Positions 15,751 to 38,537 of a stretch of DNA of 44,437 nt are shown here, in pieces (within the stretch, counting starts at the first letter, position 1; every line of letters begins with the position of its first letter). The notes beneath the pieces were generated by a model, which saw nothing but the letters and a program-made list of their open reading frames with translations, was not told the DNA's origin and made no database searches. The position numbers and the translations under genes were made by a program. Origin of the DNA: Candidatus Acidulidesulfobacter diazotrophicus (GTDB lineage: Bacteria > SZUA-79 > Acidulodesulfobacterales > Acidulodesulfobacteraceae); the NCBI GenBank assembly GCA_004195025.1, contig SGBB01000019.1:1-44437 (forward strand), written 5' to 3'.

Positions 15751-15826
15751 GCGGGCATAGCTCAGCTGGTAGAGCACAAGCTTCCCAAGCTTGGTGTCGC
15801 GAGTTCGAACCTCGTTGCCCGCTCCA
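15751..15826 (+). tRNA. tRNA-Gly (CCC)
   Basis: A complete 76-nt tRNA: acceptor GCGGGCA (15751-15757) with TGCCCGC (15816-15822), D-arm with AGCTCAGCTGGTAGAGC, anticodon stem CAAGC/GCTTG around TTCCCAA (anticodon CCC), T-arm with GTTCGAA, discriminator T and encoded CCA. It marks the end of the housekeeping block; accessory DNA begins directly after it. No second copy of its 3' end was found in the window. Confidence 0.96.
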
Positions 15827-16413: not shown

Positions 16414-16782
16414 TTGACCCCCAACAATTTAATAATTGTTTTTTTAATTATATTAAGTTTTTTATTGCCGCTCATATTTTTAAAATTATTTTACGGAAAT
16501 CATTTTACTTTTGAATTCGGAAATATGTTTTCAAAGATAATTACGTTTATACAATATAAATATTACGGCTATGTTTATATATCAAAAACAAAACATTCAG
16601 GCGCAATGTTAGGAATATATTTTTATATCGTTTCGTGTTTATTTTTATTGACCCTTTCAATAATTTTAATTAAAACAATGCTGACCGATAAAGAAAAAGA
16701 AACAATAGATTATTGTGAAAATGTAAATAATAAAAAAGAAAAATTAGCGCTGCATACGCTTGACGATAAAAAAAGGCTATAA
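16414..16782 (+). CDS. Small two-pass membrane protein
   Basis: Up to 122 residues if read from the TTG at 16414; no ATG or ribosome site is obvious. Two hydrophobic helices are clear: LIIVFLIILSFLLPLIFLKL (about 6-25) and a second around 69-90 (IYFYIVSCLFLLTLSIILI). A charged cytosolic tail rich in Lys/Glu follows. I do not recognise a family. It precedes the replication-relaxation-like gene by 59 bp on the same strand, so the two may be one unit of a mobile element. The start is uncertain. Confidence 0.5.
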   Translation: MTPNNLIIVFLIILSFLLPLIFLKLFYGNHFTFEFGNMFSKIITFIQYKYYGYVYISKTKHSGAMLGIYFYIVSCLFLLTLSIILIKTMLTDKEKETIDYCENVNNKKEKLALHTLDDKKRL

Positions 16783-16841: not shown

Positions 16842-17678
16842 ATGTCAAAAATTGATTTTTCAAATTTACAAGCTCCCTCAAAAAAAAGAGTTGACACGAC
16901 CGAAATTGATGATATTTTTTTAAATTTTTTAGCAAAACACAAGTATGCCGATGAAGTATCGGCTAATATTATTTACAATAGAACCGAAAAAAAATTATGG
17001 GAAAGAATGTATAAATTAATAAAATATAAGCTAATAAGAAAAAAACTTGCGCCTATTAACGATATAGAATTTAATGAAAAAATAAAACAGTTAAATATTC
17101 TTTCTCTTGACGATAGCGGTTGTGCTTATTGCCATACAACTAAACTAAAAAAAATAGGTCGGGCGGGAATTTCATTGAGGCATGCTCTTTATATCAGACG
17201 TTTATGCGCCGCCCTTGAAATGATAGGATTTGATAATTTTGATTATCAAACAGAATATATATTAAATAAATTTAATAATTATTTAATAAATGAATTCGGC
17301 AACAAACATAGCATAATATATCCGAGCGAAAATACAAAAATAAGTATCAGACCTGATATTTATATTAATAAATATGAGATTATTTTAGAAGTAGAATTGT
17401 CTATTAAAAATAAAAAAAGATATGCCGATAGACTTTTTTGGACACAATATATGCACGGCGTAAATAAAACTATTTGGTTTGTGGAAGACGAAAAAAAGAA
17501 AGAAACCCTGATGACAATTTTTTCAGAATTAGAAAATTATAGCTACGTTTATCAAAAAGGTTTCGGTCCTCAATTAATTTCTCCTAATGCAATTAATAAA
17601 AATCCTATATGGATTATAGATGATTTTTTGGAAAATTATAAGCAAAATTTTGTAATGCTAATAAATCTAAATATTTAA
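16842..17678 (+). CDS. Replication-relaxation-like protein
   Basis: A 278-residue protein that resembles the replication-relaxation family of plasmids and ICEs. It has an N-terminal winged helix (about 20-95; the wing region has LNILSLDDSG). A C-terminal half carries a PD-(D/E)XK-like core: RPDIYI (170-175), ILEVELSIKN (181-190) with E183, E185 and K189, then RY and a long helix. Family members assist relaxases or replication initiation. Here no relaxase is visible, and the gene is followed by a 2.1-kb non-coding, hairpin-filled tract that could hold its target. C94 and C97 in GCAYCH may bind metal. The assignment rests on motif layout only. Confidence 0.5.
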   Translation: MSKIDFSNLQAPSKKRVDTTEIDDIFLNFLAKHKYADEVSANIIYNRTEKKLWERMYKLIKYKLIRKKLAPINDIEFNEKIKQLNILSLDDSGCAYCHTTKLKKIGRAGISLRHALYIRRLCAALEMIGFDNFDYQTEYILNKFNNYLINEFGNKHSIIYPSENTKISIRPDIYINKYEIILEVELSIKNKKRYADRLFWTQYMHGVNKTIWFVEDEKKKETLMTIFSELENYSYVYQKGFGPQLISPNAINKNPIWIIDDFLENYKQNFVMLINLNI

Positions 17679-17949
17679 AAATATTAAAAATTTATTTAAA
17701 ATTTTAGTATTTTTAAACAGAGCCAATTACTTTCCGTTTAAAATATTGTTTATTTTTTTCATTAAATTTTAAAATATTTTTATATTATTCCGTTTAACAC
17801 TTTCAAAAATCTTAAATAAAATTTTCACAATTAAACCCTTTAATTTGTTTTTAAATCGGTTTTTATTTTCAGAATAATAACTTATAGCCGAATAAAAATA
17901 TTACCTTAAATGTTAAATTAAGCCCCTTAATTTGATATAAAAATGACGT

Positions 17950-17995
17950 CAAGTAGGGGGGTAATGTAGGGGGTAAAATACCATCCCCCTACTTG
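17950..17995. repeat. G-run hairpin with two competing left arms
   Basis: CCCCCTACTTG (17985-17995) is perfectly complementary to CAAGTAGGGGG (17950-17960). Its CCCCCTAC part also pairs with a second GTAGGGGG (17966-17973). The two left arms are tandem copies of GTAGGGGG(G)TAA, so only one can pair at a time, as in an attenuator or a switchable structure. Confidence 0.6.
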
Positions 17996-18303
17996 GTATA
18001 TTTAACTTATTAATATTATTGATAAATTTAGTTCGTAAAAATCCCGACTAATTGTAGAGTGGGGGCACATTTTAAAATATAAGAGAGGGGACGTAAGAAT
18101 ATTTTAAAATCTACCCCTTAACAATCAATAAACCAAAACCAAAAGAAAATTCTTAACTACATGTTTATGATTTTTGTAAATAATAAATTATTAACAAAAA
18201 TAAATAATTCTACGCTCATAAGGAAGGTCGCTTGAATTTTTAATTATTATGGGGTAGCCCGATCAGATAAGACGGCGGAATGAAGGCTGTCGGTGAGCCC
18301 CCA

Positions 18304-18342
18304 TAAAAATATAACTTTCAAAATACGAAAGTTATATTTTTA
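18304..18342. repeat. 16-bp perfect hairpin, AAAATAC loop
   Basis: TAAAAATATAACTTTC (18304-18319) and its exact reverse complement (18327-18342) flank the loop AAAATAC (18320-18326). It is the first of three hairpins in this tract with this loop sequence. Confidence 0.7.
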
Positions 18343-18369
18343 TCCAAATAAGAATCGCTTCGCTTCTCT

Positions 18370-18395
18370 TACACTTTTAAAATACAAAAAGTGTA
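18370..18395. repeat. 9-bp hairpin, AAAATACA loop
   Basis: TACACTTTT (18370-18378) pairs with AAAAGTGTA (18387-18395); the loop is AAAATACA. A CGCTTCGCTTCTCT motif lies just upstream (18354-18369). Confidence 0.6.
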
Positions 18396-18476
18396 GAGCT
18401 TCTAATTTTTCCGCCGTCTTCTTTCTTAGCATGATTTTGCCTTTTGATTACATGATGTAGTAGCTAACTGATTCGG

Positions 18477-18550
18477 TATATCCGCATTCGCTAAAATCTT
18501 TTCGGTAGTTCCCACCGAGAAAGATTTTGAAACGGGCGAATACGGATATA
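18477..18550. repeat. Long imperfect inverted repeat
   Basis: The outer arms TATATCCG and CGGATATA, then ATTCGC and GCGAAT, then AAAATCTTT and AAAGATTTT, then CGGT and ACCG enclose a short AGTTCCC loop near 18507. It is about 74 bp end to end with small internal mismatches, long enough for a cruciform or a stable RNA stem. Confidence 0.65.
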
Positions 18551-18562
18551 TTTATTCGGAAA

Positions 18563-18611
18563 TGTTTGCGATTTAAATTTTCAAGTTTTCAAATTTAAAC
18601 AAATCGCAAAC
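18563..18611. repeat. Inverted repeat with GTTTGCGATT arms
   Basis: GTTTGCGATT at the left edge and AATCGCAAAC at the right edge are perfect complements. Inner TTAAATTT and AAATTTAA arms extend the pairing with a 2-nt bulge. It lies 12 bp after the 18477-18550 inverted repeat, so the two may be one composite. Confidence 0.65.
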
Positions 18612-19224
18612 ACTATTACAAAAACAAAAACATTAAAGTAAAAACGCCCTTTGATTAAATTACAAATTTCTAATATCTTGCTTATTGAATTTTTTCTTGC
18701 GATTTAATATTTTATTTTTTATTTTACTTTTATTTTTTTTGTTAGCCGATTAATTTATTTAACTAAAAAAATTCAACAATCAATCTATAATAAATTTTGG
18801 AAATTTTCTCAATCAATTTATTTCATAAATTGCGTTAGACTAATTTATTTTAATTTTATTTTTTGCAATATTTTTTTCTTTTATTTTTTTGTCTTATTGT
18901 TTATTTCACATCTTTAATTAATTTTACTTTACAATTATACTCCGTATTTAATTTTACATTTCTATTGATAAATCCGTAAGGAACACGCGATGAATGTGAC
19001 TAAACTTATTAGTACCGTATTTAATTTTTCATTTGCTTAATTATTATTTATTAATTTTATGTTTGCATAATATTTTTATTTTAATAAGCGTAGTCTGTTC
19101 TGAAAAATTAAACACTAAATCCTATCGGATTTTACTAACAAGTTAACTCACAATCATCGCTACAGGTAAGAGTATGATTTATCAACAGAAATATAAAATC
19201 GGCTAACTACGAACGCTGCGCTTC

Positions 19225-19281
19225 GGATATTTCTTTAACGAAACCAAAATTAAAATACAAATTTTGTTTTCTATAATATCC
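19225..19281. repeat. Nested hairpin, AAAATAC loop
   Basis: GGATATT (19225-19231) pairs with AATATCC (19275-19281), and CAAAATT (19245-19251) with AATTTTG (19260-19266) around AAAATACA. CGCTTC precedes it and CTTCGCTTGC follows it, which resembles the motif next to the hairpin at 18370. Confidence 0.55.
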
Positions 19282-19458
19282 TTCGCTTGCTTATTCGGAA
19301 TAATTTAAAAGGCATTAAAGTAAAAACTATTTTTATTTTGCGCAGTCTTATAATTTATTTTAATAATTATTTTTATTTCATTTTCACTTTTATATTTATA
19401 TTTTTATTTTATAAAGTTATTAAAAAACAATTCGGATAAAAAGAATCTAAAGGCATCA

Positions 19459-19545
19459 TAATTATTTTTATTTTATTTTCATAAAGGAATAATGCCTTTA
19501 TGTCTTTTGTTTGACATAAAGCATGAAAACAAAATAAAAATAACT
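19459..19545. repeat. Large imperfect inverted repeat
   Basis: The inner perfect stem CTTTATGTC/GACATAAAG lies around TTTTGTTT near 19496-19520. The outer arms of the form TTATTTTTATTTT-ATTTTCAT and ATGAAAACAAAATAAAAATAA pair almost fully. It spans about 87 bp. Confidence 0.6.
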
Positions 19546-19547
19546 AC

Positions 19548-19619
19548 AGAATAAATAACACGGCTCACAAATAATTAAAAGACAAATTATTTGTTTCGCT
19601 TTGTGGTGTTATTTATTCT
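19548..19619. repeat. Nested perfect inverted repeats
   Basis: AGAATAAATAACAC (19548-19561) is an exact complement of 19606-19619. Inside, ACAAATAATT (about 19567-19576) pairs with AATTATTTGT. It directly follows the 19459-19545 inverted repeat. Confidence 0.65.
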
Positions 19620-19952
19620 AAAAACAATAAGGATAAAAAGAATCTAAATACTTTCAATGTTCGTTCGCAAGCTGTTCTTATTTTAGTTTTTCATTTTAAT
19701 AAGCTTTATCTTTCTATTACTTATATTATTATTTATCTATAAGCTTGCTCACTCACAATACAACACAATATAATGAACCTATTATTTAAGACAGGTTTTT
19801 TAAAATTGAACTTCCGCAATTACAATAATTGTAAAAATCTGTTAAAATTTATTATCGGCTAATAATAAAAAGATTAAAAAATTAGCAAATTAAAAATAAT
19901 AAATTTAAATATAATTAAAATAATAATTATAATTAAACATAGGAGCGTTATA

Positions 19953-21098
19953 ATGAGCATAAACCACAGAAAGTTTTCTCCTGATTTTAAGGCTAAAGTT
20001 GTCTTAGAACTATTGGAATCAGGCAAGACGACTAATGAAATAGCCACTCAATACAAAATACTGCCTAAAAGCGTTCAGGTATGGAGGAAGCAGTTTTTAG
20101 AGAATGCTTCAGCTATTTACGAAGACTCGGTGTCTTCTAAGAAATACAAAGACGAACTAAAAGAAAAAGAAAAAAAAATAGAAAACTTAGAAAAAACTTT
20201 AGGCAGAACTGTAATGGAACGAGACTGGCTGCAAAAAAAAGTAGGGAGCTTGGGCTTGATTAAAAAATTAAGCCTTGTAGAACCTGAGCTCCCGTTGTCT
20301 ATTACAAGGCAGTGCCAGCTGTTAAAATTAAATAGAACTACAATTTATTACGAACATGCTGAAAGATTCTTGGATCAAATTATATTAAACAGGTTAGATG
20401 AAATATATACGGAATTTCCGTATTACGGATATCGCCGTATGTATCATACTTTAATTCAGGAAGGCAAAGACACTAATCCTAAGCAAATATTAAATTATAT
20501 GAAAATACTGGGTATTAAAGCGCTGTATCCGGCAAAGAAGAAAAATACTTCAATACCGGACGCAAATCATGAAAAATATCCGTATCTTCTGAAAGGACTT
20601 AAAGTAACTAAGCCCAATCAGGTCTGGGCGTCGGATATAACTTATATCCGCCTTAATCACGGCTTTGTTTATTTATGCGCTATAATAGACCTTTATACAA
20701 GAAGTATTCTGTCGTGGAGCCTATCTCCTATTATGGACGAAAGACTTACTGTGAATGTATTAAATAATGCTATACATGAATACGGAACGCCCGAAATATT
20801 TAATTCTGACCAGGGTTCGCAATATACGGCTCAAAAATTTATCAATATCTTAGTGAATCATAATATATCTATTTCAATGGATTCTAAAGGCAGAGCATTA
20901 GATAATATATTTATTGAAAGATTCTGGAAAACTATAAAATACGATAATATCTATCCTTCTGGATATTTAACGATAAAAGAAGCGCATGACGGTATTGACG
21001 CTTTTATACATCAATATAACAATCACAGGCTTCATTCGTCTTTAGGGTATAAACCGCCGCTAAAATTTTATAGTGAATATTTTGAAAAAGCGGCATAA
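19953..21098 (+). CDS. IS3-family transposase, single fused ORF
   Basis: A 381-residue DDE transposase. Residues 1-60 are the OrfA helix-turn-helix (HRKFSPDFKAKVVLELLESG ... SVQVWRKQFL), followed by a leucine-zipper-like helix (about 68-95). The rve catalytic domain has the DDE residues in WASDITYI, NSDQGSQYT and NIFIERFWKTIK, and the usual NHRLHSSLGYKPP tail. In most IS3 elements OrfA and OrfB are joined by programmed -1 frameshifting; here the two parts are in one frame. AGGAG precedes the ATG. The gene looks intact and may be active. Confidence 0.93.
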   Translation: MSINHRKFSPDFKAKVVLELLESGKTTNEIATQYKILPKSVQVWRKQFLENASAIYEDSVSSKKYKDELKEKEKKIENLEKTLGRTVMERDWLQKKVGSLGLIKKLSLVEPELPLSITRQCQLLKLNRTTIYYEHAERFLDQIILNRLDEIYTEFPYYGYRRMYHTLIQEGKDTNPKQILNYMKILGIKALYPAKKKNTSIPDANHEKYPYLLKGLKVTKPNQVWASDITYIRLNHGFVYLCAIIDLYTRSILSWSLSPIMDERLTVNVLNNAIHEYGTPEIFNSDQGSQYTAQKFINILVNHNISISMDSKGRALDNIFIERFWKTIKYDNIYPSGYLTIKEAHDGIDAFIHQYNNHRLHSSLGYKPPLKFYSEYFEKAA

Positions 21099-24409: not shown

Positions 24410-27400
24410 ATGGGCAAAAATATAGACCTTTTTGTTGATCAAGAAATACATGACCGCATAAAAAATCTAAAAATTAACTTTCCGATATTTGTTCTATATA
24501 AGAATATTCGCTCCGGCAAAACATTAACTACCGAAAGAATTTTAAAAAATATAACACCTAATGCGCAGGCATTGACAATTGAAGGCGAAATACCTGATAA
24601 ATGCCAAGTTTGCATTATAGATTACGAGCCGAAAGGCTCTTTAGATAAATTAGAAGAAATATTACAGGCTAATAAAGAAAAACTAATTATATTAATAGAC
24701 GAATATACTCTAATAAGATATAAAAAAAGGCATGATAATTCGTCAAAAAATAAATTATTTAATAAAATTTTAGATATTTTTAACGGTAAAGAAAAACTCA
24801 AAGGCGACGACATTATAGAATACGAAGTAAAATACGAAGAAGTTGAAGAAATTATTAAAGACAATATACAAATTAACAATAAAGATAAAGAAAAAGAAAA
24901 AAAAACCGTTAAAAACATATCCAAAATAATATACGATGAAAGAAAAAAAACTTATATCTTAGGCGCTATTTCAGAATTATCTGAAAAATTTAAAAATAAA
25001 GAAGTTGAAATAGAAAGCTTAGATATAGAAATAGATAAACTTAACGGTCATCTTAAGGCTTTTACCGCAGTGATGGGAGTAGGGCTTTTAGGCGAAGCTT
25101 CTCTTTATGATTTTATAGCCAATATATCCGCTACAGCCGCTTTACCGACAGGGCTTATGTTCGCTCCGCCGCTGTTAATGTCTATTCCGTTTATAATGAT
25201 AATTAAAAATAAAATTTTTCCGGATAAACTAAAAAAAGCGGAAACTCCTTTGCAGCAGCTTGCCATAGCCGTTGCCGCATGGAAAGAACTCCCGAAGTCT
25301 TCGTTAGAAGCGTTTTGCTATCAGATGGACAATGTGTTAGATCTGCCGTTATATACCACGTATAACAATTTAGACGATATGTTTAGCACACGTAATGCTG
25401 AAGATATTAAAAAAGCCATAGACGAAAAGCTTAAAGACGAAACATTTTTAAGTAAAATTAATGAAATATATTTAAATAGTGAATATAGAAATGAATTAGA
25501 CGCTAAATTATCCGACATAACCAAAAAAATAGAAGAATATGGAGAAAGAATAAACAAACTTGAAAGAGAAGTTAAAGAGATAAAAAAAACATTAGCCGCA
25601 CAGGATCAAAAGATTGAAACTCAAAAAGAAGAAAATACTACCAGCGGCTGCACAAAATTCAAATCAAAAGAAAATCCGAACGATATCTTTAAAGATAATA
25701 AAACATTAGAAGACCAGTTTACGGATACGGCTATTCCCAAATATATAGAAAAACAGCAAGAGTTAATAGACGACATTTTAAAAAAAGCTTCTTCAAAACT
25801 CGTAATTATAAACGGAGAACCTGGAGCTGGCAAATCAATCTTGCTTTATCAGATAGCTAAAGCTATTCGTAACAAATATGAAAAAGTTTTTTATATAAAC
25901 GAATTCGATAAGTTCTCTCCCCTTAATTTTTCTAAATCAAATGAAAACAATTACGCCGTTTTAGATAACATAAATATTGAAAAAATAAATCAAATTATAG
26001 ATATTGCGGGTAATCCTGGCATAAAAAGAATCATTTTAACGACAAGAAAAGAATATTTAAAAGATAAATTGAATAATCTAAATAAAGATTTCATATGTCT
26101 TTATGATTATAAACCAGAAGATACTTTCCTTAAAATACTCGCAGACACTCTCATAAAAAAAGAAAAACCCGATAACATAAAGTTATTTAACGAACAGGAA
26201 CTGATAGATAAACTCGTTGAAAATTCCAACGGCATTGCTCTTTATATTTCAGAAGCTGTTAAACTGCTCAAACAAAATGATTTCAGCACGGATGCTATTG
26301 AGAATACACCTAAGGGCATAAAAGATCTTGTGAATAAAATATTAGAAGATGAAATAAAAAGAAATCCTCATCTGATTTACATTTATTATCTCGTATCCCA
26401 TTATTCAGGATTTCCAGGAGAACTTCTTACTTCTATTAAAAATGAATTTCCTGATTTATTTAAAGAAGAACCTATTTATTTGGAAGAAAGAAAAGGGTTA
26501 TGTTATTTGCATTCCTGGTATAAAGATATAACCGATGAAATATTTAATAGCGATAAAGAACCTATAAATAGAATAAATAAAATTCATAAGGATTTATCCG
26601 AACTAAAAACACTGATAGGTGAAATCGGCAACGTTAAAATAAAAGAACCCCTATCCGAGTTTTTAGATAATATAGATAATGGAGTAGATATAAAGGATTT
26701 GTCCGATTTAATATTGCTTTACGGAATAAAAAATTATGCGTATTCCAAAAAGGATAATAAATACGGTTTTAATATAATAACAGGCAAAAATAATCCGGGT
26801 TCGGCATACAAATATGAAAATTTAATTAAATTTATTTCTGAGAGTTTTATAAACGACGATATACTTAAAGATTTAAACAATAGACCTATATATGCATTAA
26901 TTATCTTGCTTGTATGCCGATTATTAACAAGTAATAACTATATAAAGAACATTTCGGAAAATATCTTAAAGCAGGAAACTGATAATATTGATTTTGAATA
27001 CGTATTTAAAGGATTAGTTAGTGAAAATATTCATAATTATGAATTTATCCCTAATATAATTAAATCAATCATTCGCATTCACGAACAATTTGTTAATGAT
27101 ATTGATATTAACAATGCTTCAGATTACGATAAATCTATATATAGTTTTTTTACAGGAAATTTAAATTTAAAATTATTTGTATCGCTTTTTATAAATAAAG
27201 CCTTACAATGTCAGCCAAATAACGATTTTTATCATTTTACAAATGGATTCTTTAATTATATTGCGGGTAATAAAAAAAAAGCTATAGAAGAATATGATAA
27301 AGCAATTAGATTATTAAGTCAAAACGATAAAAAGGATACAACTGATAATTTATTTTATTACATTTGGAAAGGTTTTGCATTAATTGGTCTTGGTTTGTGT

Positions 27401-27991
27401 TACGAAGCTATTATACCTATAAATAAAGCAATAGAACTCGATCTTAATAATTTTAATGCATGCTTTTACAAAGGTCTTGCATTATATGGTCTTAACCAAT
27501 ACGAAGAAGCTATTGAGTTTTTTAATAAAGCAATAAAACTAGATCCAAGCAATTCATTAGTAAACATGCTTAAAGGACAAGGATTGGGTTTGCTTGATCA
27601 ATATGAAGAAGCTTTTAAGGCATTTAATAAAGCGATAGAACTCGATCCTAATAATTCAAATGCATATATGGGTAAAGGTAATGTATTAAAAGGCATAGGA
27701 AAATACGAAGATGCCATTAAAGCATATGACAAAGCGATAGAACTTAATCCAGATAATTCAAATGCATATTTTAACAAAGGTAATTTGTTAGGAATTCTTG
27801 AAGATTATAAGCATGCTATAAAATTATTTAATAAAGCGATAGAACTCGATCCTAATAATTCAGATGCATATAGTAATAAAGGATATGCATTAAATAAACT
27901 TGAACAATTTGAAGATGCTATTAAAGCATTTAATAAGGCGATAGAACTCAATCCTAATAAAACAGATTATTATATAAAGCTATTGCGTTAG
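24410..27991 (+). CDS. STAND-type NTPase with membrane segment and TPR sensor
   Basis: 1193 residues as read. Order: an N-terminal domain with a degenerate P-loop (YKNIRSGKT, 30-38) and a Walker-B-like LIILIDEYT (92-100); a hydrophobic, possibly membrane-inserting part (218-266); a coiled coil (370-405); a second NTPase with Walker A GEPGAGKS (469-476), YAVLDN (515-520) and IILTTRKEY (541-549), as in STAND proteins; an all-helical linker; and seven TPRs from about 945 (NAYMGKGNVLKGIGKYEDAI). STAND proteins with a repeat sensor and N-terminal effector are often anti-phage switches; that role is inferred. AAAGGAG precedes the ATG. The frame breaks within the TPR array; three more repeats follow in another frame. 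Confidence 0.75.
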   Translation: MGKNIDLFVDQEIHDRIKNLKINFPIFVLYKNIRSGKTLTTERILKNITPNAQALTIEGEIPDKCQVCIIDYEPKGSLDKLEEILQANKEKLIILIDEYTLIRYKKRHDNSSKNKLFNKILDIFNGKEKLKGDDIIEYEVKYEEVEEIIKDNIQINNKDKEKEKKTVKNISKIIYDERKKTYILGAISELSEKFKNKEVEIESLDIEIDKLNGHLKAFTAVMGVGLLGEASLYDFIANISATAALPTGLMFAPPLLMSIPFIMIIKNKIFPDKLKKAETPLQQLAIAVAAWKELPKSSLEAFCYQMDNVLDLPLYTTYNNLDDMFSTRNAEDIKKAIDEKLKDETFLSKINEIYLNSEYRNELDAKLSDITKKIEEYGERINKLEREVKEIKKTLAAQDQKIETQKEENTTSGCTKFKSKENPNDIFKDNKTLEDQFTDTAIPKYIEKQQELIDDILKKASSKLVIINGEPGAGKSILLYQIAKAIRNKYEKVFYINEFDKFSPLNFSKSNENNYAVLDNINIEKINQIIDIAGNPGIKRIILTTRKEYLKDKLNNLNKDFICLYDYKPEDTFLKILADTLIKKEKPDNIKLFNEQELIDKLVENSNGIALYISEAVKLLKQNDFSTDAIENTPKGIKDLVNKILEDEIKRNPHLIYIYYLVSHYSGFPGELLTSIKNEFPDLFKEEPIYLEERKGLCYLHSWYKDITDEIFNSDKEPINRINKIHKDLSELKTLIGEIGNVKIKEPLSEFLDNIDNGVDIKDLSDLILLYGIKNYAYSKKDNKYGFNIITGKNNPGSAYKYENLIKFISESFINDDILKDLNNRPIYALIILLVCRLLTSNNYIKNISENILKQETDNIDFEYVFKGLVSENIHNYEFIPNIIKSIIRIHEQFVNDIDINNASDYDKSIYSFFTGNLNLKLFVSLFINKALQCQPNNDFYHFTNGFFNYIAGNKKKAIEEYDKAIRLLSQNDKKDTTDNLFYYIWKGFALIGLGLCYEAIIPINKAIELDLNNFNACFYKGLALYGLNQYEEAIEFFNKAIKLDPSNSLVNMLKGQGLGLLDQYEEAFKAFNKAIELDPNNSNAYMGKGNVLKGIGKYEDAIKAYDKAIELNPDNSNAYFNKGNLLGILEDYKHAIKLFNKAIELDPNNSDAYSNKGYALNKLEQFEDAIKAFNKAIELNPNKTDYYIKLLR

Positions 27992-28323
27992 AAAATCTTA
28001 ATCGTTATAGAGAAGCCCTGGATATTTATAATAAAATTATTAAACTTAATCCTAATGATCCAGATGCATACTATAGTAAAAGTGCGGCATTGAATATTCT
28101 CGAAAGTTACAATGAAGCAATTAAAGCATGCGATAAAGCAACAAAACTTGATCCTAATAACTCATATGGATATCTAATTAAATGCGAGGCCTTATTACAT
28201 CTTAATCTCCTTGAAGATGCTATAGAAACAATTAATAAGGCAATAGAACTCAATCGTGAAAATGTAATTTTTCAAAATATTAAAAGAGACATTGAAAAAG
28301 AATTTCAAAAAGGTAAATCTTAA
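27978..28323 (+). pseudogene. Frameshifted C-terminal TPRs of the STAND protein
   Basis: One base appears lost in the AT-rich run GATTATTATATAAAGC (27965-27980). In the new frame the protein continues KAIALENLNRYREALDIYNK, DAYYSKSAALNILESYNEAI and YGYLIKCEALLHLNLLEDAI and ends FQKGKS at 28323, giving ten TPRs in total. The repeats stay intact after the break, so the shift is recent, phase-variable or an assembly error. A start at 28090 inside this piece is unlikely to be used. Confidence 0.75.
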
Positions 28324-28598
28324 CTATCTGTAATTATAAATATTTTTAGTTTTCTAATAAATAATAAAATCGCAATAGAAATATTTTTTAAATTTCTTTA
28401 ATTTAATAACTTTTAAATTTAATAAAAATTTTCATTTATGGTTTTTGACATTAAAAAGCTTGAAATCTTTTACTCTTTTGAAAACATGCTAATATTTCAA
28501 ACACTTTAATATATCTTAAATATAGTAATAGAGATATGGCGGAAGCGGTTGATAGAGCTAATAACGGATTAAATAACGGAGAATATTAATTTTTATTT
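28324..28598. other. Short gene-free gap before the A24 peptidase
   Basis: AT-rich sequence. A 17-codon frame at 28535-28588 (MAEAVDRANNGLNNGEY) ends 10 bp before the peptidase ATG. Its end carries the only ribosome-site-like GGAGA, so it could be a leader peptide, but I cannot support it as a gene. Confidence 0.4.
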
Positions 28599-29198
28599 AT
28601 GTTTAACAAAATAAAATCCAAACATATATTCTTCTTGCCTATAATAATAACGGCTATCGGCGTTTTTATTCTGTACGGCTTTTTATCGCAAAATTTTATT
28701 GATACTTATTATATCGTTAAAACCGCCCTTTTAACCGATAAATTTATCGTCCCTGCAAGTTTTAATCTAAAATATCTTATATTATTTTCAGGATTAATAT
28801 TAATGTCATTTACTGATATGTTGTTTGAATTAATATCAACGATAATACCGATATTATTGATAATAGCGGGCTTTCTTTTCGCGTATCTTTTACATTTGCC
28901 ATTATTAATCGTTCTTGAGTCTGCAGGTATCGGTCTTGGAATATTTATCTTTATAGATATTACAAAATTAGGCTCTTACGCTATGGGCGATATATTAACC
29001 GCCGGAGCTATAGGCGCTTATGTCGGCATAGAAAACATTATTATTATTTCAATATCCGCTATAATATTAGGTAAGATAATTACTTATGCAATGGCTAAAA
29101 TAGACGGTATTTGCGATAAAAGTAAGTTAAAAGAATTTAATATGGCTTTTGTGCCGGTATTATTTTTAGCAACGGCGGTAATTAAATCAATAAGATAA
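28599..29198 (+). CDS. A24-family (prepilin-type) aspartic peptidase
   Basis: A 199-residue integral membrane protein with about six helices. The two A24 aspartates are present: D73 in MSFTDMLFEL and D131 in YAMGDILTAGAIGAYVG, the GxGD-type motif that gives the family its name, and the protein ends with the hydrophobic FVPVLFLATAV segment. It lacks the N-terminal cysteine-rich methylase domain of PilD, as do short TadV/CpaA-like forms. Such enzymes cleave type III signal peptides of pilins at the inner face of the membrane. No pilin gene was found nearby, so its substrate is unknown. It lies between the STAND gene and repeat copy 2. Confidence 0.72.
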   Translation: MFNKIKSKHIFFLPIIITAIGVFILYGFLSQNFIDTYYIVKTALLTDKFIVPASFNLKYLILFSGLILMSFTDMLFELISTIIPILLIIAGFLFAYLLHLPLLIVLESAGIGLGIFIFIDITKLGSYAMGDILTAGAIGAYVGIENIIIISISAIILGKIITYAMAKIDGICDKSKLKEFNMAFVPVLFLATAVIKSIR

Positions 29199-29246
29199 AT
29201 TAGGCAACTAAGCAATAAGATAGAAACATCGGCATGATAGTTAATT

Positions 29247-29394
29247 AGGCAATCTGTATAATTTAACAACATTTATTAATAAGTATATATAATTTATACA
29301 GATATATGGATATTCAAAAAGTAATAGAAAAATATGTCAAAGAAGATTTAAGACGATATAAAGCAAAATCTTTTAAAAAAAATTTAATGCTGAT
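29247..29394. repeat. Long direct repeat, copy 2
   Basis: 148 bp matching 23734-23883, starting AGGCAATC and ending CTGAT. Its leader carries a perfect 10-bp inverted repeat, ATCTGTATAA (29252-29261) with TTATACAGAT (29294-29303), which has one mismatch in copy 1. The two copies are direct and 5.4 kb apart. Confidence 0.8.
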
Positions 29395-29452
29395 TCCTCA
29401 CTTTAATATTTCAAAGAAAAAATTAAATAAATCTGTTAAAATAATTAAATAA
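29306..29452 (+). CDS. Small basic protein in the direct repeat, copy 2
   Basis: A 48-residue frame: MDIQKVIEKYVKEDLRRYKA, then KSFKKNLMLIPHFNISKKKL and NKSVKIIK. It is amphipathic, helical and strongly basic, with no signal peptide. The hairpin leader upstream is conserved with copy 1. Three of the nucleotide changes between the copies are silent or conservative, so the frame may be real. I recognise no family; a DNA- or RNA-binding peptide or a toxin-antitoxin component is possible. Confidence 0.45.
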   Translation: MDIQKVIEKYVKEDLRRYKAKSFKKNLMLIPHFNISKKKLNKSVKIIK

Positions 29453-29468
29453 TTAAATAATTTAGCGG

Positions 29469-29729
29469 GTGCGGTTCGTGGACAAATTATGCCTTTCCTG
29501 TGATATTTTTAATCTTATTATCATCGTCGGCGGTATATTCGCCTTTATTGCTTCGATAATGGCGTATCTTATAACTTACGACGAATATATACATCATTAT
29601 CAAAGCGCTAAAAAACCGATAAAATATGCGCTACAGGCGGCTATATTCACATTTGTTTTATTTTGCATATTGACGGTAGGCGCGGGATATTTTCTTAGCC
29701 TCTATATTGTGACATTGCGCTGGGTTTAG
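29469..29729 (+). CDS. Small two-pass membrane protein
   Basis: Up to 86 residues from a GTG at 29469; a second GTG at 29478 (VDKLCLSC...) is an equally good start and neither has a strong ribosome site. Two hydrophobic helices are separated by a polar loop (TYDEYIHHYQSAKKPIKYAL): one at about 15-35, the other around 57-79. Two cysteines lie near the N-terminus (CLSC). No family recognised. It could be part of an envelope or conjugation-like unit with the A24 peptidase. Confidence 0.5.
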   Translation: MRFVDKLCLSCDIFNLIIIVGGIFAFIASIMAYLITYDEYIHHYQSAKKPIKYALQAAIFTFVLFCILTVGAGYFLSLYIVTLRWV

Positions 29730-29859
29730 ACAGCTATTAACTGCACTATTTTACTTTGGCGATTATTAATTATAAATTTGACTCGATATCTATTGAAAGC
29801 GTTATATGAAATTCTTGATAATAGATAATTATATGTTTTAAAAAAACTTTAAAAATATT

Positions 29860-29889
29860 TATATTTGCATTTATTTTTTTGCAAATATA
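29860..29889. repeat. 10-bp hairpin upstream of the 58-residue gene
   Basis: TATATTTGCA (29860-29869) pairs with TGCAAATATA (29880-29889) around a T-rich 10-nt loop. It lies 65 bp before the next ATG and after the small membrane-protein gene; it may end that transcript or serve as an operator. Confidence 0.45.
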
Positions 29890-29953
29890 GTTTACGATTT
29901 TAACATTTTCAATAAAACTAAAATAAATAAATAATAAACAGGAGGTTATTTAT

Positions 29954-30130
29954 ATGAAAAATATTGAAATGAACGTTAACGGCGATATTTTAACAATTAA
30001 AGTTGACATTTCTAAGACATTCGGTAAGTCCAGCAGCGGCAAGTCAACTATTATCGCTTCTACGGAAGGCAATATGTCTGTGCCGGGCAAAGAAGAAGTC
30101 AAAATAGGATTAAATGTTTACACGAAATAA
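29954..30130 (+). CDS. Conserved 58-residue protein with SSSGKSTIIASTEGN motif
   Basis: An excellent ribosome site (AGGAGG, 7 nt) precedes MKNIEMNVNGDILTIKVDIS. A central SSSGKSTIIASTEGNMSVPG stretch and a KIGLNVYTK end follow. I recall similar short proteins of this pattern in scattered bacteria and plasmids, annotated only as hypothetical. The pattern predicts a small beta-rich domain, not a true P-loop, since the GKS lacks the upstream glycines. It is transcribed alone: a hairpin lies upstream and a perfect terminator-like hairpin downstream. It was too short to be listed by a simple ORF scan. Confidence 0.75.
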   Translation: MKNIEMNVNGDILTIKVDISKTFGKSSSGKSTIIASTEGNMSVPGKEEVKIGLNVYTK

Positions 30131-30141
30131 GAATATTAATA

Positions 30142-30176
30142 GCTTTTAAACCCTTATATGATAAGGGTTTAAAAGC
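30142..30176 (+). terminator. 16-bp perfect hairpin after the small gene
   Basis: GCTTTTAAACCCTTAT (30142-30157) pairs perfectly with 30161-30176 around ATG. It begins 12 bp after the stop codon of the 58-residue gene. No T-run follows, so it may protect the mRNA end rather than terminate on its own. Confidence 0.6.
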
Positions 30177-30314
30177 AACACGCCTTAAAACGCATTATAG
30201 AGCGTTTAAACTGCATATTTGATTCTTAGGTATAAATCATTAAATATACAATTAAAACTTAATAAATCGGATAGGATTTACAAAAAATAACAAAAAACAT
30301 GAGGCAGGTTGATT

Positions 30315-31439
30315 ATGAAAAAAATATTATTATTAGCTTTAATTTTTATATGCCTATTTTCAACTAAAGCTTTTGCTTCAAGGCTTATAAATGAAGGAAC
30401 ATTTACTACTATAGGTAAAGAAACTTCAATATATTTAAACTTTATTGATTTTGATCCATCGGATATATTAATTAGTAAGAACAAAATGTGGCTTACAGGA
30501 CATAATAATTCTATAACAAAAATTAATCTAAGGGGTAGTAAAGGCGCGTTTATGTATTTAGGTAAAATGTCGCAATACTATAATAATAATAGACATTACC
30601 CGGAAAGTATCGCCATTGACAAACAAGGAAATATATATATTGTAGATGGTAAATATATTTCAAAACTAAACAAAAAAGGTAAATTTATAAAAAAATTTGA
30701 TTATAGCCAAAAAAGAAGATTTATTGTTTCTATTGCTATAGATAAAAACGGCAATATATGGGTTATAAATCATAATATCCGTTCATCTAACATAATAGAA
30801 TTAACTCCATCAGGAAAAATAATTAATAAATACCCTATAAATGTTAATATAGTTCCCAGCAATATTGTTGTAGGCAAAAATAATAATATATGGATTGAAT
30901 CTTATAAAAAAGATAATTTTAAAGATTGGAATATAATAAAAATTAATCTTATAACAAAAAAAATAAGAAACATAATATCAAAAACTAATCATTCTCTTTG
31001 GACGCCTGTAAAATTTAATTCTGTTGGTGATATATATATTGTTTACGGCAATGATATAGAAAAACTTAATCATAAAGGCAAATTGCTAATAAATAAGTCT
31101 ATAAAAAATATGGGGTTTGGTTCTTCTCTTGTCATTGATAAACATGGAAATATATGGACTTTCGGCGGTAGCACCACGAATATTAATTCTTCTGAAATTT
31201 TATATGAATTAAATCCAAACCTTAAAATAATAAAAAAATTTAATTTATTTAAGTATACTTATAATATGCTCCTTTATAATCCAAAAACCAGCAAAACAAT
31301 TATTAAAAAATTTAAATTTAATCTAAATAATGTAGCGATTGATAATATAAATATTGATAAAAAGGGAGATATATGGGTAGGTATAAACTATAGTAATGGT
31401 AGGTATATCAAGGGTTGTTTATTAGAATTAGATTATTAA
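30315..31439 (+). CDS. Exported beta-propeller protein
   Basis: A 374-residue protein with a Sec signal peptide (MKKILLLALIFICLFSTKAF, cleavage after AFA). The mature part has about five NHL/SBBP-type blades with the motif SIAIDKQGNIYIVDG, SIAIDKNGNIWVINH, LVIDKHGNIWTFGG and INIDKKGDIWVGIN. It is probably a periplasmic or surface binding protein; no enzymatic residues are recognisable. I start at the ATG at 30315, 8 nt after GGCAGG, rather than the upstream TTG at 30309. A second exported gene follows after 43 bp. Confidence 0.8.
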   Translation: MKKILLLALIFICLFSTKAFASRLINEGTFTTIGKETSIYLNFIDFDPSDILISKNKMWLTGHNNSITKINLRGSKGAFMYLGKMSQYYNNNRHYPESIAIDKQGNIYIVDGKYISKLNKKGKFIKKFDYSQKRRFIVSIAIDKNGNIWVINHNIRSSNIIELTPSGKIINKYPINVNIVPSNIVVGKNNNIWIESYKKDNFKDWNIIKINLITKKIRNIISKTNHSLWTPVKFNSVGDIYIVYGNDIEKLNHKGKLLINKSIKNMGFGSSLVIDKHGNIWTFGGSTTNINSSEILYELNPNLKIIKKFNLFKYTYNMLLYNPKTSKTIIKKFKFNLNNVAIDNINIDKKGDIWVGINYSNGRYIKGCLLELDY

Positions 31440-31482
31440 AATTATATTATATTGCATATTGAAATTAAATTTTTTAAAAATA

Positions 31483-32001
31483 ATGAAAAAATATAAAATA
31501 ACATTATTATCTTTATTTTTAATACTTTTATTTTCTGTTAAAGCCTTTTCTTTCGGCATTTTCAATATCCCTTACAATAAATCCGATTCTAACTTTAACA
31601 AACTTGCCATGCGGGTGTATAATTCAAATAGCCCTTATATCTATTCAAGCGGCGCTTATACCTATAATGCAATGCCGATAACGACGACTATGTCGGGGTG
31701 TAAAATAATAGCTGTTATTAAAACAATGCAAAACTTCGGAAATAAGAATACTGAAAACTACAAGATATGCGGCGGGAATATTTCGCGGGTTGAAAATACC
31801 AATCCTGCGGGCTGGAACAATTTGCCAAACGGCATTAAACCTGTTATAAATAATGTTATTGCAGAAACAAGACAATACGGCAAAGCAACGGCTAATTATA
31901 ACGGATATAGGGTAGTGGGAACTGCCCAGTCTTATAACAGCAATACAGTTTATGTGTATGTGCTGAATGGGATAAAGTTAGAAGCGATGATGAGGGTTTG
32001 A
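31483..32001 (+). CDS. Exported protein of unknown function
   Basis: A 172-residue protein with a clear signal peptide (MKKYKITLLSLFLILLFSVK, cleavage near AFS). The mature part is rich in Asn, Tyr and Ser and has two cysteines (SGCKIIAV and KICGGN) that could form a disulphide. No family is recognised. The G+C content of its 3' half is higher than that of its neighbours. I start at the ATG at 31483 because the signal peptide begins there; an upstream TTG at 31459 has no ribosome site. It may be co-transcribed with the beta-propeller gene. Confidence 0.65.
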   Translation: MKKYKITLLSLFLILLFSVKAFSFGIFNIPYNKSDSNFNKLAMRVYNSNSPYIYSSGAYTYNAMPITTTMSGCKIIAVIKTMQNFGNKNTENYKICGGNISRVENTNPAGWNNLPNGIKPVINNVIAETRQYGKATANYNGYRVVGTAQSYNSNTVYVYVLNGIKLEAMMRV

Positions 32002-32086
32002 AAAAGAGCCATAAATAATTAAAACATGCACTAAATAAGTCAATTATATTTAGACTAATTTATGTTTAATTTTAGGATTATCTATA

Positions 32087-33943
32087 ATGGGTAAATTTGA
32101 TAATTTCACAAAAGATGAGTTAATAGCGCTTCTTCAAAAAAAAGACGAAGAAATTAAAAATAAAGAATATGGTCTTGTCTGGGATAAAGAAAAAGAACCC
32201 GAACAAGTTGTTTTAGACTGCGAGACTAATTTGCCTGTACTTGAGAGAATAAAAGAAAAGGAAATTAAAACGGATGATAGCGACGACAATATTTTAATAG
32301 AAGGAGACAATTATCATGCTTTGTCGGTTCTTAATTATACGCACAAAGGGAAAATTGATATTATTTATATTGATCCGCCATATAACACAGGTAAAGCGAA
32401 TGAGTGGAAATATAATGATAAATATGTAGATGAAAATGATATATATAGACATAGCAAATGGCTTAATTTTATGGAAAAAAGATTAAAGCTCGCTAAAAAT
32501 GTTTTAAAAGAAAATGGTGTAATTTTTATAAGTATTGATGATAATGAATTAGCTCAATTAAAATTATTGTGTGATAAGATTTTTAAAGATAATTTTATTG
32601 CAAACATAATATGGCAGAAAAAATTTTCACCACAAAATGATGCAACTTATTTTTCCAATATGCATGATTATATTTTAGTGTTTGCAAATAGAAAAAAGAA
32701 AAATAAGAAAGATTTTTTGGGGTGGGAAAGAAACCTATTAAAAAGAAATGAAAATAGTTCTTATAAGAACATTGATAATGATGTAAGAGGATTATGGACA
32801 TCTGGAGACCTAACAGCGGAAGGTCCAACTGAAAATTGTATATATCCGATAGAAAGTCCGACAGGGAAAATTCATTATCCGCCGATAGGGAAAAGATGGG
32901 TATTTAATAAAGATAGTTATATTATTTTAAAAAATCAAAACAAAATTTGGTTTGGTAAGGATGGTAATAGTTACCCAAGGTTAAAAAGATTTTTGTCAGA
33001 AGTGCAAGATGGGTACGTTCCAAACACTATTTGGTTTTATAATGAGGTAGGTCATACTCAAGATGCTAAACAAGAGTTTAATGATTTTTTTCAAAGAGAA
33101 ATAGATTTTGAATATCCAAAACCATCAAAATTAATAAAAAGAATTATTCAAATTGGTGGAAATAAAGATTCAATAATCTTAGACTATTTCGCTGGAACTG
33201 GAACAACAGGCCAATCTGTTTTGGAGCTCAACAAAGAAGATGGCGGAAATAGAAAGTTTATATTATGTACAAATAATGAAAATAATATTTGCGAAGAAAT
33301 CACATTTCAAAGAATTTACAAGTCTATCAAAGGCTATAAGTTTAAAGGCAAGGATAAAACAACTCTTTTTGAACAAAAAATTACCTTTTCTAACTTTACA
33401 AAAAATTTTAATGAATTATTAGAAGAAATAAATACTATTATTAAAGAAAATAATGACAAATATGATAAAATTGAAAAGAAATTTGAGAATAATATTATAA
33501 AAATTGTGGGAATTAAAAATATTGATTCTTTTAAGGAAGGTTCTGGCGGTAATCTTCAATATTTTAAAACAGACCTTATCCCCGTAGAAACAATTAATAA
33601 AATAAACGACAAGCAAAGGCATGAGCTTACAAAAAAAGCGGGACAGATGATTGCAATTAAAGAGAACACCCTTAAAGAATTAGAATATAATAATTGGTAT
33701 CAGATATTTGAAAGCAGAAATAAGACAAGAAAAACAGTAATTTATTTCAGAGAAGATATGGATAAATTTGAAGAATTAGTTGAAAGTATCAAAGGCACAC
33801 AAACCGTTCTTTATGTTTTTTCATATGGAAGAATTGATAAAAAACTATTTAAATATTTAGATAAGAATATAACTATTGAGGATATCCCCGAACCTATTCT
33901 TGAAATATATAAGGAAATAAATTTAACCAATAAAAATAATTAA
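32087..33943 (+). CDS. mod: Type III restriction-modification methyltransferase (Mod)
   Basis: A 618-residue adenine-N6 methyltransferase of the beta class, with the catalytic DPPY first (IYIDPPYNTG, D96-Y99) and the AdoMet motif later (DYFAGTGTTG, F368-G372). The target-recognition region lies between them (about 150-330), and a long C-terminal helper domain follows. N-terminal residues 1-25 form a charged helix. The order and the adjoining Res gene, 2 bp after the stop, identify a type III system. Mod alone methylates one strand of an asymmetric site; with Res it forms the restriction complex. Intact; no phase-variable repeat is visible in the gene. Confidence 0.93.
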   Translation: MGKFDNFTKDELIALLQKKDEEIKNKEYGLVWDKEKEPEQVVLDCETNLPVLERIKEKEIKTDDSDDNILIEGDNYHALSVLNYTHKGKIDIIYIDPPYNTGKANEWKYNDKYVDENDIYRHSKWLNFMEKRLKLAKNVLKENGVIFISIDDNELAQLKLLCDKIFKDNFIANIIWQKKFSPQNDATYFSNMHDYILVFANRKKKNKKDFLGWERNLLKRNENSSYKNIDNDVRGLWTSGDLTAEGPTENCIYPIESPTGKIHYPPIGKRWVFNKDSYIILKNQNKIWFGKDGNSYPRLKRFLSEVQDGYVPNTIWFYNEVGHTQDAKQEFNDFFQREIDFEYPKPSKLIKRIIQIGGNKDSIILDYFAGTGTTGQSVLELNKEDGGNRKFILCTNNENNICEEITFQRIYKSIKGYKFKGKDKTTLFEQKITFSNFTKNFNELLEEINTIIKENNDKYDKIEKKFENNIIKIVGIKNIDSFKEGSGGNLQYFKTDLIPVETINKINDKQRHELTKKAGQMIAIKENTLKELEYNNWYQIFESRNKTRKTVIYFREDMDKFEELVESIKGTQTVLYVFSYGRIDKKLFKYLDKNITIEDIPEPILEIYKEINLTNKNN

Positions 33944-33945
33944 TT

Positions 33946-36285: not shown

Positions 36286-36350
36286 TACAATGTTATTATA
36301 GAATATAATTTTATAAAATTTCAATAAATAAAATATGGACACGTCAGCTA

Positions 36351-38537
36351 ATGAAAATTAATTCAATTAAACTAAAAAACTTCTTATCTTTTGGAGAGGA
36401 AGAAACATTTTTAGACAATTTAGGTAATTTAAATATTATTGTCGGTCCTAACAATTCCGGAAAGACAAATATATTTAGAACATTAAGCTTGGCAAAAAAA
36501 ATAATTAATTCTACTAATCCAATTCCAGATGAAACAATTCAATATTACTTCCATTTAAATAATAAATCTGAAAAATCCAATATTACAATAGAATTTAGCA
36601 TTTCAGATAATAAAAAGGATATAATTCTTGATATTTTCAATTTTATTTTTTCCTTAATTAAAATTCAAAATAATGATTTTAATATAAGAACATCATTTGA
36701 TCGTTCGACGACCTTTAGAAATTTCATTGAGGGTATTTTTAATAGTAATCAACAAGACAATAGTAATTTTAACAGGGTTGATATAGATAAATTTTTTAAT
36801 TATATACAAAATATTTTCATAGAATATGCCGAAGAAATAATAAAGAAAGTATCTAAAGTGATTTTATCAATAGAAATACGCGAAGATTTATTTAATTTTA
36901 AAATATATCTTAAAGATGACCTAAATAATTGCGTTTATGGTTTTGATAATAATACAGAATATATAAATTATGAAAGAGGCGACTACGACAGTTTTGATTT
37001 AAAATTCAAAGAAATGTTTCAATCTAAAATTAAATCAAAATTGCAAACTAATTTTGAAGGCAGCGAAGAGTTAGAAAAAGAAATTAAAAAATTTTTATAT
37101 GAAACTAGTCTTGAATTTGCAACTGGATTCATTGATATTAAACATGAAATGACAGGTATTGATTCAAAACAAATTTATACTCTTTATTATAAAATTAATG
37201 ATTATTTAACTAAATTAAATTTAGGATCATCGATACAAAATGTTAAAAATAGATTTTCAATTAGCCATGTGATAAGGCAAATTATAGTAAACAGTTTAAT
37301 ATTCACCGAAGAATTTTATGGATCATCTCAAGGATCGTTTGATAGTATATCTGATTTAACTAATGCAGGACATGAAGAACTTAATTTGAGGCTTTATGTG
37401 TTAAAGAATAACTATCCTGATAAATTTAATGAAATTAAAAATAAATTTGCTAAAATTTTTAATAATATTGATTTTGATATTCAATCAGCTAATAGAATTG
37501 ATAAGAGAAAAGTTTTAATAAGGGATATAAGTAATGATGCTGATAATAACTTAAATAAGTCAAATACTATCGGTTCATATACCGTTCCAGAGCATAAAGA
37601 CTATTATTATGAGGATGTAACAGTTTTAGAACCTTATATTGTTTTTTATGATAAAGACAAGGATTTAAAAATTACATTTGATTTTGCAAGTTCAGGAATG
37701 AAAGAATTATTGAATTTATTAAGTTTAACAACAATAGGCGGTATTGAGAACAATATAATATTTATGGACGAGCCGGGCGCGACGTTTCACCCGTCAATGC
37801 AGAAGAAATTTTTAGAAGAAATTATAACAAATAGTAAAAGCGCAGGTCAAGTCTTTATAATAACGCATTCCCCTTATTTTATTCCGTCAAATTTTTTAGA
37901 TTTTAACAATAATAATAGCCAGATAAAATTGTTTAGATTTTATAAAAATGTAGACGGAGTATCCACAGGATTCATAGATATAAACAAAAGTATTGATAAC
38001 AATAATGATTTGGAGGGCTTAAAAACTGTAATTAGAGCAAATATAGACAAAATTATAAGAGCCCCTTTTGCAAATCTTGTTGTTGTGGTAGAAGGCATTG
38101 AAGAACAAATGAGTTTATCGTCTTTATTGCTTAAATATTGCAATCTCAATATTGCAGATTTTGATATTGAAGTGATACATTCGCACGGTAAAAGTAATGT
38201 AGATAAATATAGCAATATTTTTAAAAATTGGAATATAAATACTTTATCAATTAAAGATTCGGATAAAAATACCAGCAGTCCTAATAATCAATACGAATAT
38301 TATTGGAACAATTATAATAATTATACAGAACTTATTTGTTCCATTCTTAAAGAATCAATTAACAATGGAATTAATTTAGACAACGAAAAAGAAATTCAAG
38401 AAGAATATAATAAAGAAAAGCCTCGAAAGTTGCATCTAAATAATTTATTATTGGATAATATAGATACAATATGTAAGGAACCAAATGCAAAAAAGGATTT
38501 AGAAGAATTGTCAAATAAAATAAGAAAATTTATTTAA
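36351..38537 (+). CDS. OLD-family ATPase with TOPRIM nuclease domain
   Basis: A 728-residue protein. The ABC-type ATPase half has Walker A GPNNSGKT (32-39), a signature-like ASSGMKELLNLLSL and Walker B NIIFMDEPGATFHP (D473, E474). A TOPRIM domain follows: the general acid E581 in VVVVEGIEEQ and the metal pair D636/D638 in IKDSDKN. Overcoming-lysogenization-defect proteins and their Gabija-like relatives use this layout to nick or cut invading DNA. No UvrD-like partner is present, so it is not a standard Gabija. It lies 65 bp after res and 52 bp before the DUF2971 gene, the likely partner. Confidence 0.85.
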   Translation: MKINSIKLKNFLSFGEEETFLDNLGNLNIIVGPNNSGKTNIFRTLSLAKKIINSTNPIPDETIQYYFHLNNKSEKSNITIEFSISDNKKDIILDIFNFIFSLIKIQNNDFNIRTSFDRSTTFRNFIEGIFNSNQQDNSNFNRVDIDKFFNYIQNIFIEYAEEIIKKVSKVILSIEIREDLFNFKIYLKDDLNNCVYGFDNNTEYINYERGDYDSFDLKFKEMFQSKIKSKLQTNFEGSEELEKEIKKFLYETSLEFATGFIDIKHEMTGIDSKQIYTLYYKINDYLTKLNLGSSIQNVKNRFSISHVIRQIIVNSLIFTEEFYGSSQGSFDSISDLTNAGHEELNLRLYVLKNNYPDKFNEIKNKFAKIFNNIDFDIQSANRIDKRKVLIRDISNDADNNLNKSNTIGSYTVPEHKDYYYEDVTVLEPYIVFYDKDKDLKITFDFASSGMKELLNLLSLTTIGGIENNIIFMDEPGATFHPSMQKKFLEEIITNSKSAGQVFIITHSPYFIPSNFLDFNNNNSQIKLFRFYKNVDGVSTGFIDINKSIDNNNDLEGLKTVIRANIDKIIRAPFANLVVVVEGIEEQMSLSSLLLKYCNLNIADFDIEVIHSHGKSNVDKYSNIFKNWNINTLSIKDSDKNTSSPNNQYEYYWNNYNNYTELICSILKESINNGINLDNEKEIQEEYNKEKPRKLHLNNLLLDNIDTICKEPNAKKDLEELSNKIRKFI

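Follow-up and report, generated by a model that had tools for sequence, protein, structure and literature searches.

A MOBC-like gene and an adjoining hairpin-rich tract as the possible DNA-processing end of a decayed mobile element in Candidatus Acidulidesulfobacter diazotrophicus

We analyzed a stretch of 44,437 nucleotides of Candidatus Acidulidesulfobacter diazotrophicus DNA (referred to below as the window), in which a tRNA-Gly gene is followed on the same strand by genes for a 122-aa membrane protein and a 278-aa protein and then by a hairpin-rich tract of about 2.1 kb (17679-19770) (Table 1). The original prediction had singled out the gene for the 278-aa protein together with the gene-free tract behind it, and this layout was confirmed. 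The longest stop-to-stop frame of the tract is 69 aa long and of low complexity, and no plausible gene was found there. Perfect stems of at least 8 bp, determined by folding with G-U pairs disallowed, comprised 19.0% of the bases of the tract versus 6.8% (SD, 1.8) in dinucleotide shuffles (z 6.7).

Table 1 Features of the locus, with positions in the window
Feature	Position	Strand	Remarks
tRNA-Gly (CCC)	15751..15826	+	Adjoins lplA; probable integration site
Small membrane protein gene	16414..16782	+	122 aa; TTG start as listed
MOBC-like, most likely relaxase gene	16842..17678	+	278 aa; winged helix and PD-(D/E)XK motif
Conserved non-coding core, candidate oriT	17829..18073 (245 bp)	+	Aligns with L019, L020, and L050
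Hairpin inside core	17951..17996		G-run/C-run arms, AGTAGGGGG / CCCCCTACTT
Hairpin opening the field	18053..18121		GGGGG..ATTTTAAAATAT / ATATTTTAAAAT..CCCC
Branched hairpin	18265..18421		Outer arms AAGACGGCGGAA / TTCCGCCGTCTT; encloses a 17-bp perfect stem and a second stem-loop
Perfect 17-bp stem	18303-18319/18327-18343		Inside branched hairpin 18265..18421
Long bulged hairpin	18472..18563		TATATCCG-CATTCGC-AAAATCTTT-TCGGT / ACCGA-AAAGATTTT-GCGAATACGGATATA
Hairpin	18562..18611		TGTTTGCGATTTAAATTT / AAATTTAAACAAATCGCAAACA
Widely spaced inverted repeat	18951..19199		24-nt arms, 92% complementary
Hairpin, AT-rich right half	19217..19292		
Hairpin	19459..19546 (19459-19482/19523-19546)		24-nt arms, 92% complementary
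Hairpin	19549..19618		AGAATAAATAACAC.. / ..GTGTTATTTATTCT
IS3-family element	about 19770..21098	+	Transposase 19953-21098; ends the readable field
Short tyrosine recombinase fragment	28476..28565	+	30 aa; 77% identity to the relatives' recombinase

The gene for the 278-aa protein is intact, with an ATG start and no internal stops. Its product carries the residues P171 D172, E183, E185, and K189 of a PD-(D/E)XK motif, of which P171 D172, E183, and K189 were invariant in all 10 aligned relatives, with the spacing typical of that motif (PD...ExE...K). Pfam gave no match for the window protein on its own, and PF13814 (Replic_Relax) matched 3 of the 10 relatives (best E value, 1.1e-5), the window protein not being among them. 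The NCBIfam profile NF041423 ("MobC family replication-relaxation protein") matched the window protein with 19.8 bits (E value, 3.9e-4) and 6 of the 10 family members (best, 3.4e-9), the highest score among the relatives in genomes of the phylum being 48.4 bits. The curated subfamily cut-off of that profile (200 bits) was reached neither by the window protein nor by any relative, and by its score the protein is outside the subfamily. The region of NF041423 that recognizes the window protein family also recognized a piece of CloDF13 mobC (3.4e-4) lying downstream of a coupling-ATPase frame; the mobC region is apparently frame-broken in its record. An AlphaFold model of the 278-aa protein (pLDDT, 80.6; pTM, 0.81) matched MarR-type winged-helix structures with a probability of up to 1.00, at E values of 0.06 or worse, and matched nuclease folds weakly (1xmx, E value 0.17; PvuRTs1I, E value 0.38). 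According to a review, the MOBC relaxases CloDF13 MobC and pAD1 TraX are restriction-endonuclease-like PD-(D/E)XK enzymes for which no covalent intermediate has been seen, and for TraX, a winged helix at the N terminus and binding to direct repeats 70 to 120 bp from nic are described (PMC12857230).

Because of the motif, the profile matches, the link to CloDF13, the features described in the review, and the AlphaFold model, the 278-aa protein is most likely a MOBC-like relaxase itself and not the partner of one. Its link to the replication-relaxation/MobC group, as judged from the profiles, is real though distant. The original prediction had envisaged a winged-helix, PD-(D/E)XK protein working with a relaxase, and of this the kinship to the replication-relaxation group survives as that distant link. 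It held that a relaxase is missing, which is probably incorrect, since the protein is best read as a MOBC-type relaxase; its alternative, that a different nuclease acts here, came closer, the protein probably being a restriction-endonuclease-like relaxase.

We then compared the locus with 30 genomes of the phylum, all belonging to one family. In four relatives (L019, L020, L027, and L050), a coupling ATPase gene (PF12696, PF02534) is followed by the small membrane protein gene and then by the relaxase gene, the last of the operon; the window thus retains the last two genes. Its 122-aa membrane protein is 61% identical to the L019 copy, and its homologs in the relatives are encoded between the coupling ATPase and the relaxase. 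ParA/ParB genes lie upstream of the transfer operon in L019, L027, and L050. The same trio together with T4SS-like genes was found in a second clade (L022, L024, L026, and L046), and an ATPase gene followed by a MobC-like gene was found in two unrelated lineages (L135 and L138). With about 400 aa, the coupling ATPase of L019 (L019:10515-12108, minus strand) is a short one, and a membrane protein is encoded by the small gene adjoining it; the two could possibly form a split type IV coupling protein. The coupling-ATPase alignment used as a query of genome contigs led to MAGs (HSP2, SKS5, and LSA5 isolates), and the window protein alone used in the same way found nothing. As a guess, the isolate names and the gene content suggest that the elements come from acid mine drainage and from an Acidulodesulfobacterales-like host. 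The plasmid collection contained no relatives of the proteins, and the viral contigs contained none of the relaxase or of the coupling ATPase.

The prediction of a decayed element was supported by the missing and broken partner genes. In the relatives, a short tyrosine recombinase gene follows the ORF-less tract, and in the window a fragment of such a gene is present, with IS3-type and Mutator-type transposase genes lying between it and the relaxase region. Since the coupling ATPase was not found in the genome to which the window belongs, the recombinase is only a fragment, and transposase genes are present, we regard the window copy of the element as decayed. In L021, the orthologous tRNA-Gly gene lies beside lplA/gcvH/accC and is abutted by a tyrosine integrase gene, and for this reason the tRNA-Gly gene of the window is the probable integration site, through which the element probably entered. 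A second copy of the tRNA-Gly end (attR) was looked for in the window, and none was found. The island at 24410-44340 of the window encodes a STAND-TPR protein, a Type III restriction-modification pair, an OLD/AriA-like ATPase, a PDC-S31-like protein, and a large P-loop ATPase, and is a probable defence cluster.

Between the relaxase gene and the hairpin field lies a non-coding core, whose counterparts in L019, L020, and L050 occupy the same place, immediately before the fields of these elements. Composition-weighted comparisons of the core gave scores of 101 to 115, against best scores of 78 to 84 among 66 control stretches, and returned the same window interval each time. Plain unweighted alignment performed no better than with AT-rich controls, and since these scored as high, the unweighted similarity is unconvincing. 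L021 and L027 showed no match to the core. From the weighted comparisons and its position we infer that the core is the best oriT candidate.

The folding energy per nucleotide of the tract was also low relative to shuffles (z -8.6), and when 180-nt windows were scored separately, half of those from the tract but 9.6% of those from elsewhere had a z below -3. At least eight substantial stems were found (seven or more inverted repeats had been predicted), the strongest pieces being 18265-18421, 18472-18563, and 18562-18611. The structure is uneven, the part at roughly 18640-18940 being AT-rich and weak. The predicted short direct repeats held up in part: a 29-bp repeat (93%) is present at 19423 and 19620, but most of the others are AT-rich and near chance. 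Six of the seven intergenic controls from the window were far weaker than the tract and the seventh, 1684-2228, was as strong, so that it is not strong hairpins as such that are unique to the tract but their clustering. This seventh stretch (dG z -10) contains a long bulged hairpin in a style like that of the field hairpins and is flanked by a pair of toxin-antitoxin-like genes on one side and a coiled-coil-like ORF on the other. A dispersed MITE-like repeat family of the same genome (GGATTCC(C/T)GC..GCGGGAATGAC / GTCATTCC..GCGGGAATCC) has copies at L113:4760-4960, L114:15080-15320, L123:15960-16200, and L118:1800-2000.

Near 19770, at the right edge of the tract, the sequence begins to resemble a second copy of the IS3-element leader found elsewhere in the genome. 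A dispersed MITE was rejected as the source of the tract, no repeated copies of it being found in the genome except for the IS leader and AT-rich matches. A decayed ordinary gene, which the original prediction had named as the finding that would speak against it, was likewise rejected: no frame exceeds 69 aa, and in the relatives the corresponding position is occupied by structured DNA without ORFs.

The layout of relaxase gene and hairpin tract was indeed found to recur in other genomes. Several relatives have an ORF-less hairpin field of 1.2 to 2.4 kb directly downstream of the relaxase gene, consisting of packed branched hairpins over about 2.4 kb in L019, 2 kb in L027, and 1.2 kb in L050, with stem z values of 11.7, 17.0, and 15.8, respectively, versus 6.7 in the window. 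L024 and L026 lack a field, that of L021 is weak, and no hairpin field accompanies the MobC-like genes of the other lineages (L135 and L138); since the field is missing in these cases, it is not a universal part of MOBC systems. The fields turned out to be modular, L019 and L027 having the second half in common and L019, L050, and L081 the first half. L027 contains two copies of a 295-bp module (98.6% identity), the second of them upstream of a retron-type reverse transcriptase (RT) gene. The window field has only the core in common with the relatives, not the hairpin sequences, and the plasmid collection contained no direct DNA relatives of the window field or the L019 field. A third clade (L023, L025, L047, and L048) has instead one very long conserved hairpin between the relaxase and integrase genes (L025:9251-9866, L023:8964-9578, L047:8826-9427, and L048:4748-5418, minus strand); it is about 95 nt long and nearly perfect, has a bulge (AAGCGT) on one side, and differs among the four genomes in a compensatory manner. 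The retron-type RT (about 250 aa) is encoded on the minus strand at L019:916-1680, L027:1986-2696, and L050:4030-4800, and matches PF00078 (4e-24) and retron RT models of PADLOC (down to 1e-60). In these field-bearing elements, parts of the hairpin field are found again 0.5 to 1.5 kb upstream of the RT gene.

To assess covariation, we aligned a module represented by seven sequences from the relatives, the window field not being part of it. In this alignment 98.0% of the cells pair, and changes on both sides were found at 12 pairs. Double-change cells numbered 26, against 10.0 in shuffles (0/500), and dropped to 0 to 4 in controls with slid arms. In two pairwise tests at about 80% identity, the compensatory changes numbered 9 and 7, where 1.2 and 1.3, respectively, would have been expected, and broken pairs were far below expectation. 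Hairpin tips could differ entirely while the hairpin bases were nearly identical. These comparisons indicate that the fields of the relatives are conserved by structure while their sequence changes. One-sided stem changes were about equally of the G.T (33) and A.C (41) type, as summed over overlapping comparisons. Since an RNA should favor G-U on its own strand, this equality fits folding at the DNA level, or templated repair of palindromes, better.

Our preferred reading, to which we assign a probability of about 50%, is that the locus is the end at which a conjugative or mobilizable element, now decayed, processed its DNA, comprising a MOBC-type relaxase, a core serving as candidate oriT, and a hairpin field acting as a single strand. 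The winged helix of the 278-aa protein would bind the core downstream of its gene, and the PD-(D/E)XK domain would nick one strand near it; the DNA past the core would then be unwound and passed on as a single strand. The hairpin field would be the first DNA exposed in single-stranded form and would fold there, its foldability being kept by selection at the DNA level. The most likely role of such structures would be in transfer or entry, where they could engage the relaxosome or the coupling protein, prime synthesis of the complementary strand, or act as single-strand promoters from which early genes are expressed. The origin or leading-region function of the tract is one that we infer. Against the reading weigh the weak profile and nuclease-fold matches of the window protein, the restriction of the similarity with the relatives' fields to the core, and the lack of a field in some relatives; moreover, the field pieces found upstream of the RT gene are unexplained by a pure leading-region role, and equal numbers of G.T and A.C changes would also be expected from templated palindrome repair without selection.

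The latter point leads to the alternative that the hairpins are functionless by-products of hairpin or template-switch mutation and of gene conversion, through which palindromes spread in the AT-rich, weakly selected DNA of mobile elements. Templated correction of quasi-palindromes would produce apparent compensatory changes and strand symmetry alike, and the wholesale exchange of tips on persisting hairpin bases, the nearly identical module copies within one element, and the other strong hairpins of this genome, some of them repeat families, agree with such an origin. We nevertheless consider it unlikely, as in several elements the fields immediately follow the relaxase gene instead of being scattered all over the element, the stem bases are conserved between elements, and the stem density is far above that of other intergenic DNA.

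Rather unlikely, too, is that the element produces a large structured non-coding RNA from the field, comparable to the sgm-sRNA of SGI1. An RNA of this kind would account for the dense, branched, covarying stems across 1.2 to 2.4 kb and has a precedent in an RNA located by oriT and needed for mobilization (PMC9299015). However, Rfam 15 gave no match above the gathering score for the window or for the L019 field, and A.C changes were about as frequent as G.T changes where an excess of G-U is expected. The fold energy showed no consistent strand preference, being lower for the antisense strand in the window, L019, and L050 and for the sense strand in L027, and promoter-like sites were not enriched in the window field (10 sites in a consensus scan versus 15.7 expected).

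Known single-strand origins are single sites far shorter than the tract, and the position on the relaxase side and the conserved core fit transfer at least equally well. It is therefore improbable that the tract served a plasmid form as its origin of vegetative or single-strand replication instead of belonging to the transfer machinery, even though ParA/ParB genes adjoin the transfer operon in the relatives, no replication initiator was recognized elsewhere, and ICEBs1 has a single-strand origin (PMC4595007). The remaining suggestion of the original prediction, integron-like attC sites or a cassette array, which long folded sites with one-sided bulges and the tyrosine recombinases nearby in the relatives might bring to mind, is already largely refuted and highly improbable, since there are no cassettes between the hairpins and the window, L019, L027, and L050 fields contained no complementary RYYYAAC/GTTRRRY box pairs 40 to 150 bp apart.

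Extended from the window to the phylum, the reading of the tract as the processing end of a transferable element becomes tentative: it is possible, though somewhat doubtful, that the MOBC-type conjugative elements of the phylum carry a new kind of transfer-linked DNA, a folded hairpin array of 1 to 2.4 kb next to oriT that is maintained through its structure and not its sequence and whose tips can be exchanged, and that this array acts in priming, early expression, protection, or coupling once the single strand is transferred. To our knowledge, few oriTs of MOBC relaxases have been mapped, and these relaxases are poorly understood. The elements described here would be small conjugative elements of one family, in which the relaxase is compact, the membrane partner of the coupling ATPase is a separate protein, and a conserved core is combined with a covarying hairpin field, and they provide defined sequences for mapping nicking and for testing long single-strand structures at the leading end of transferred DNA.

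Of the known systems with folded non-coding sites, integron attC arrays resemble the field in their varied sequence and one-sided bulges but have R boxes and cassettes, both of which the field lacks. In Salmonella Genomic Island 1, an essential sgm-sRNA is encoded between mpsA and oriT (PMC9299015), and thus a functional non-coding tract also lies beside an atypical relaxase and oriT; the sgm-sRNA is a small processed RNA, whereas for the field no strand preference was seen. The Frpo sequences of the F plasmid (PMC9849209) and the single-strand origin of ICEBs1 (PMC4595007) are precedents for single-strand promoters or priming. Like the field, Frpo is non-coding, lies near the transfer origin, and folds as a single strand, but it consists of single stem-loops ahead of genes, while the field has eight or more hairpins in tandem; the ICEBs1 origin likewise is folded non-coding DNA of an integrative conjugative element, but it is one short site as opposed to 1.2 to 2.4 kb of hairpins. 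CloDF13 MobC and pAD1 TraX share the winged helix and PD-(D/E)XK motif with the window protein, and CloDF13 also shares with the relatives the relaxase gene directly downstream of the coupling ATPase gene and the region recognized by NF041423. The window family is very distant from both proteins in sequence and differs from both systems in having a separate small membrane protein encoded between the ATPase and the relaxase, and among the MOBC-like genes of the lineages examined, it is only here that a kilobase-scale hairpin field adjoins the gene.
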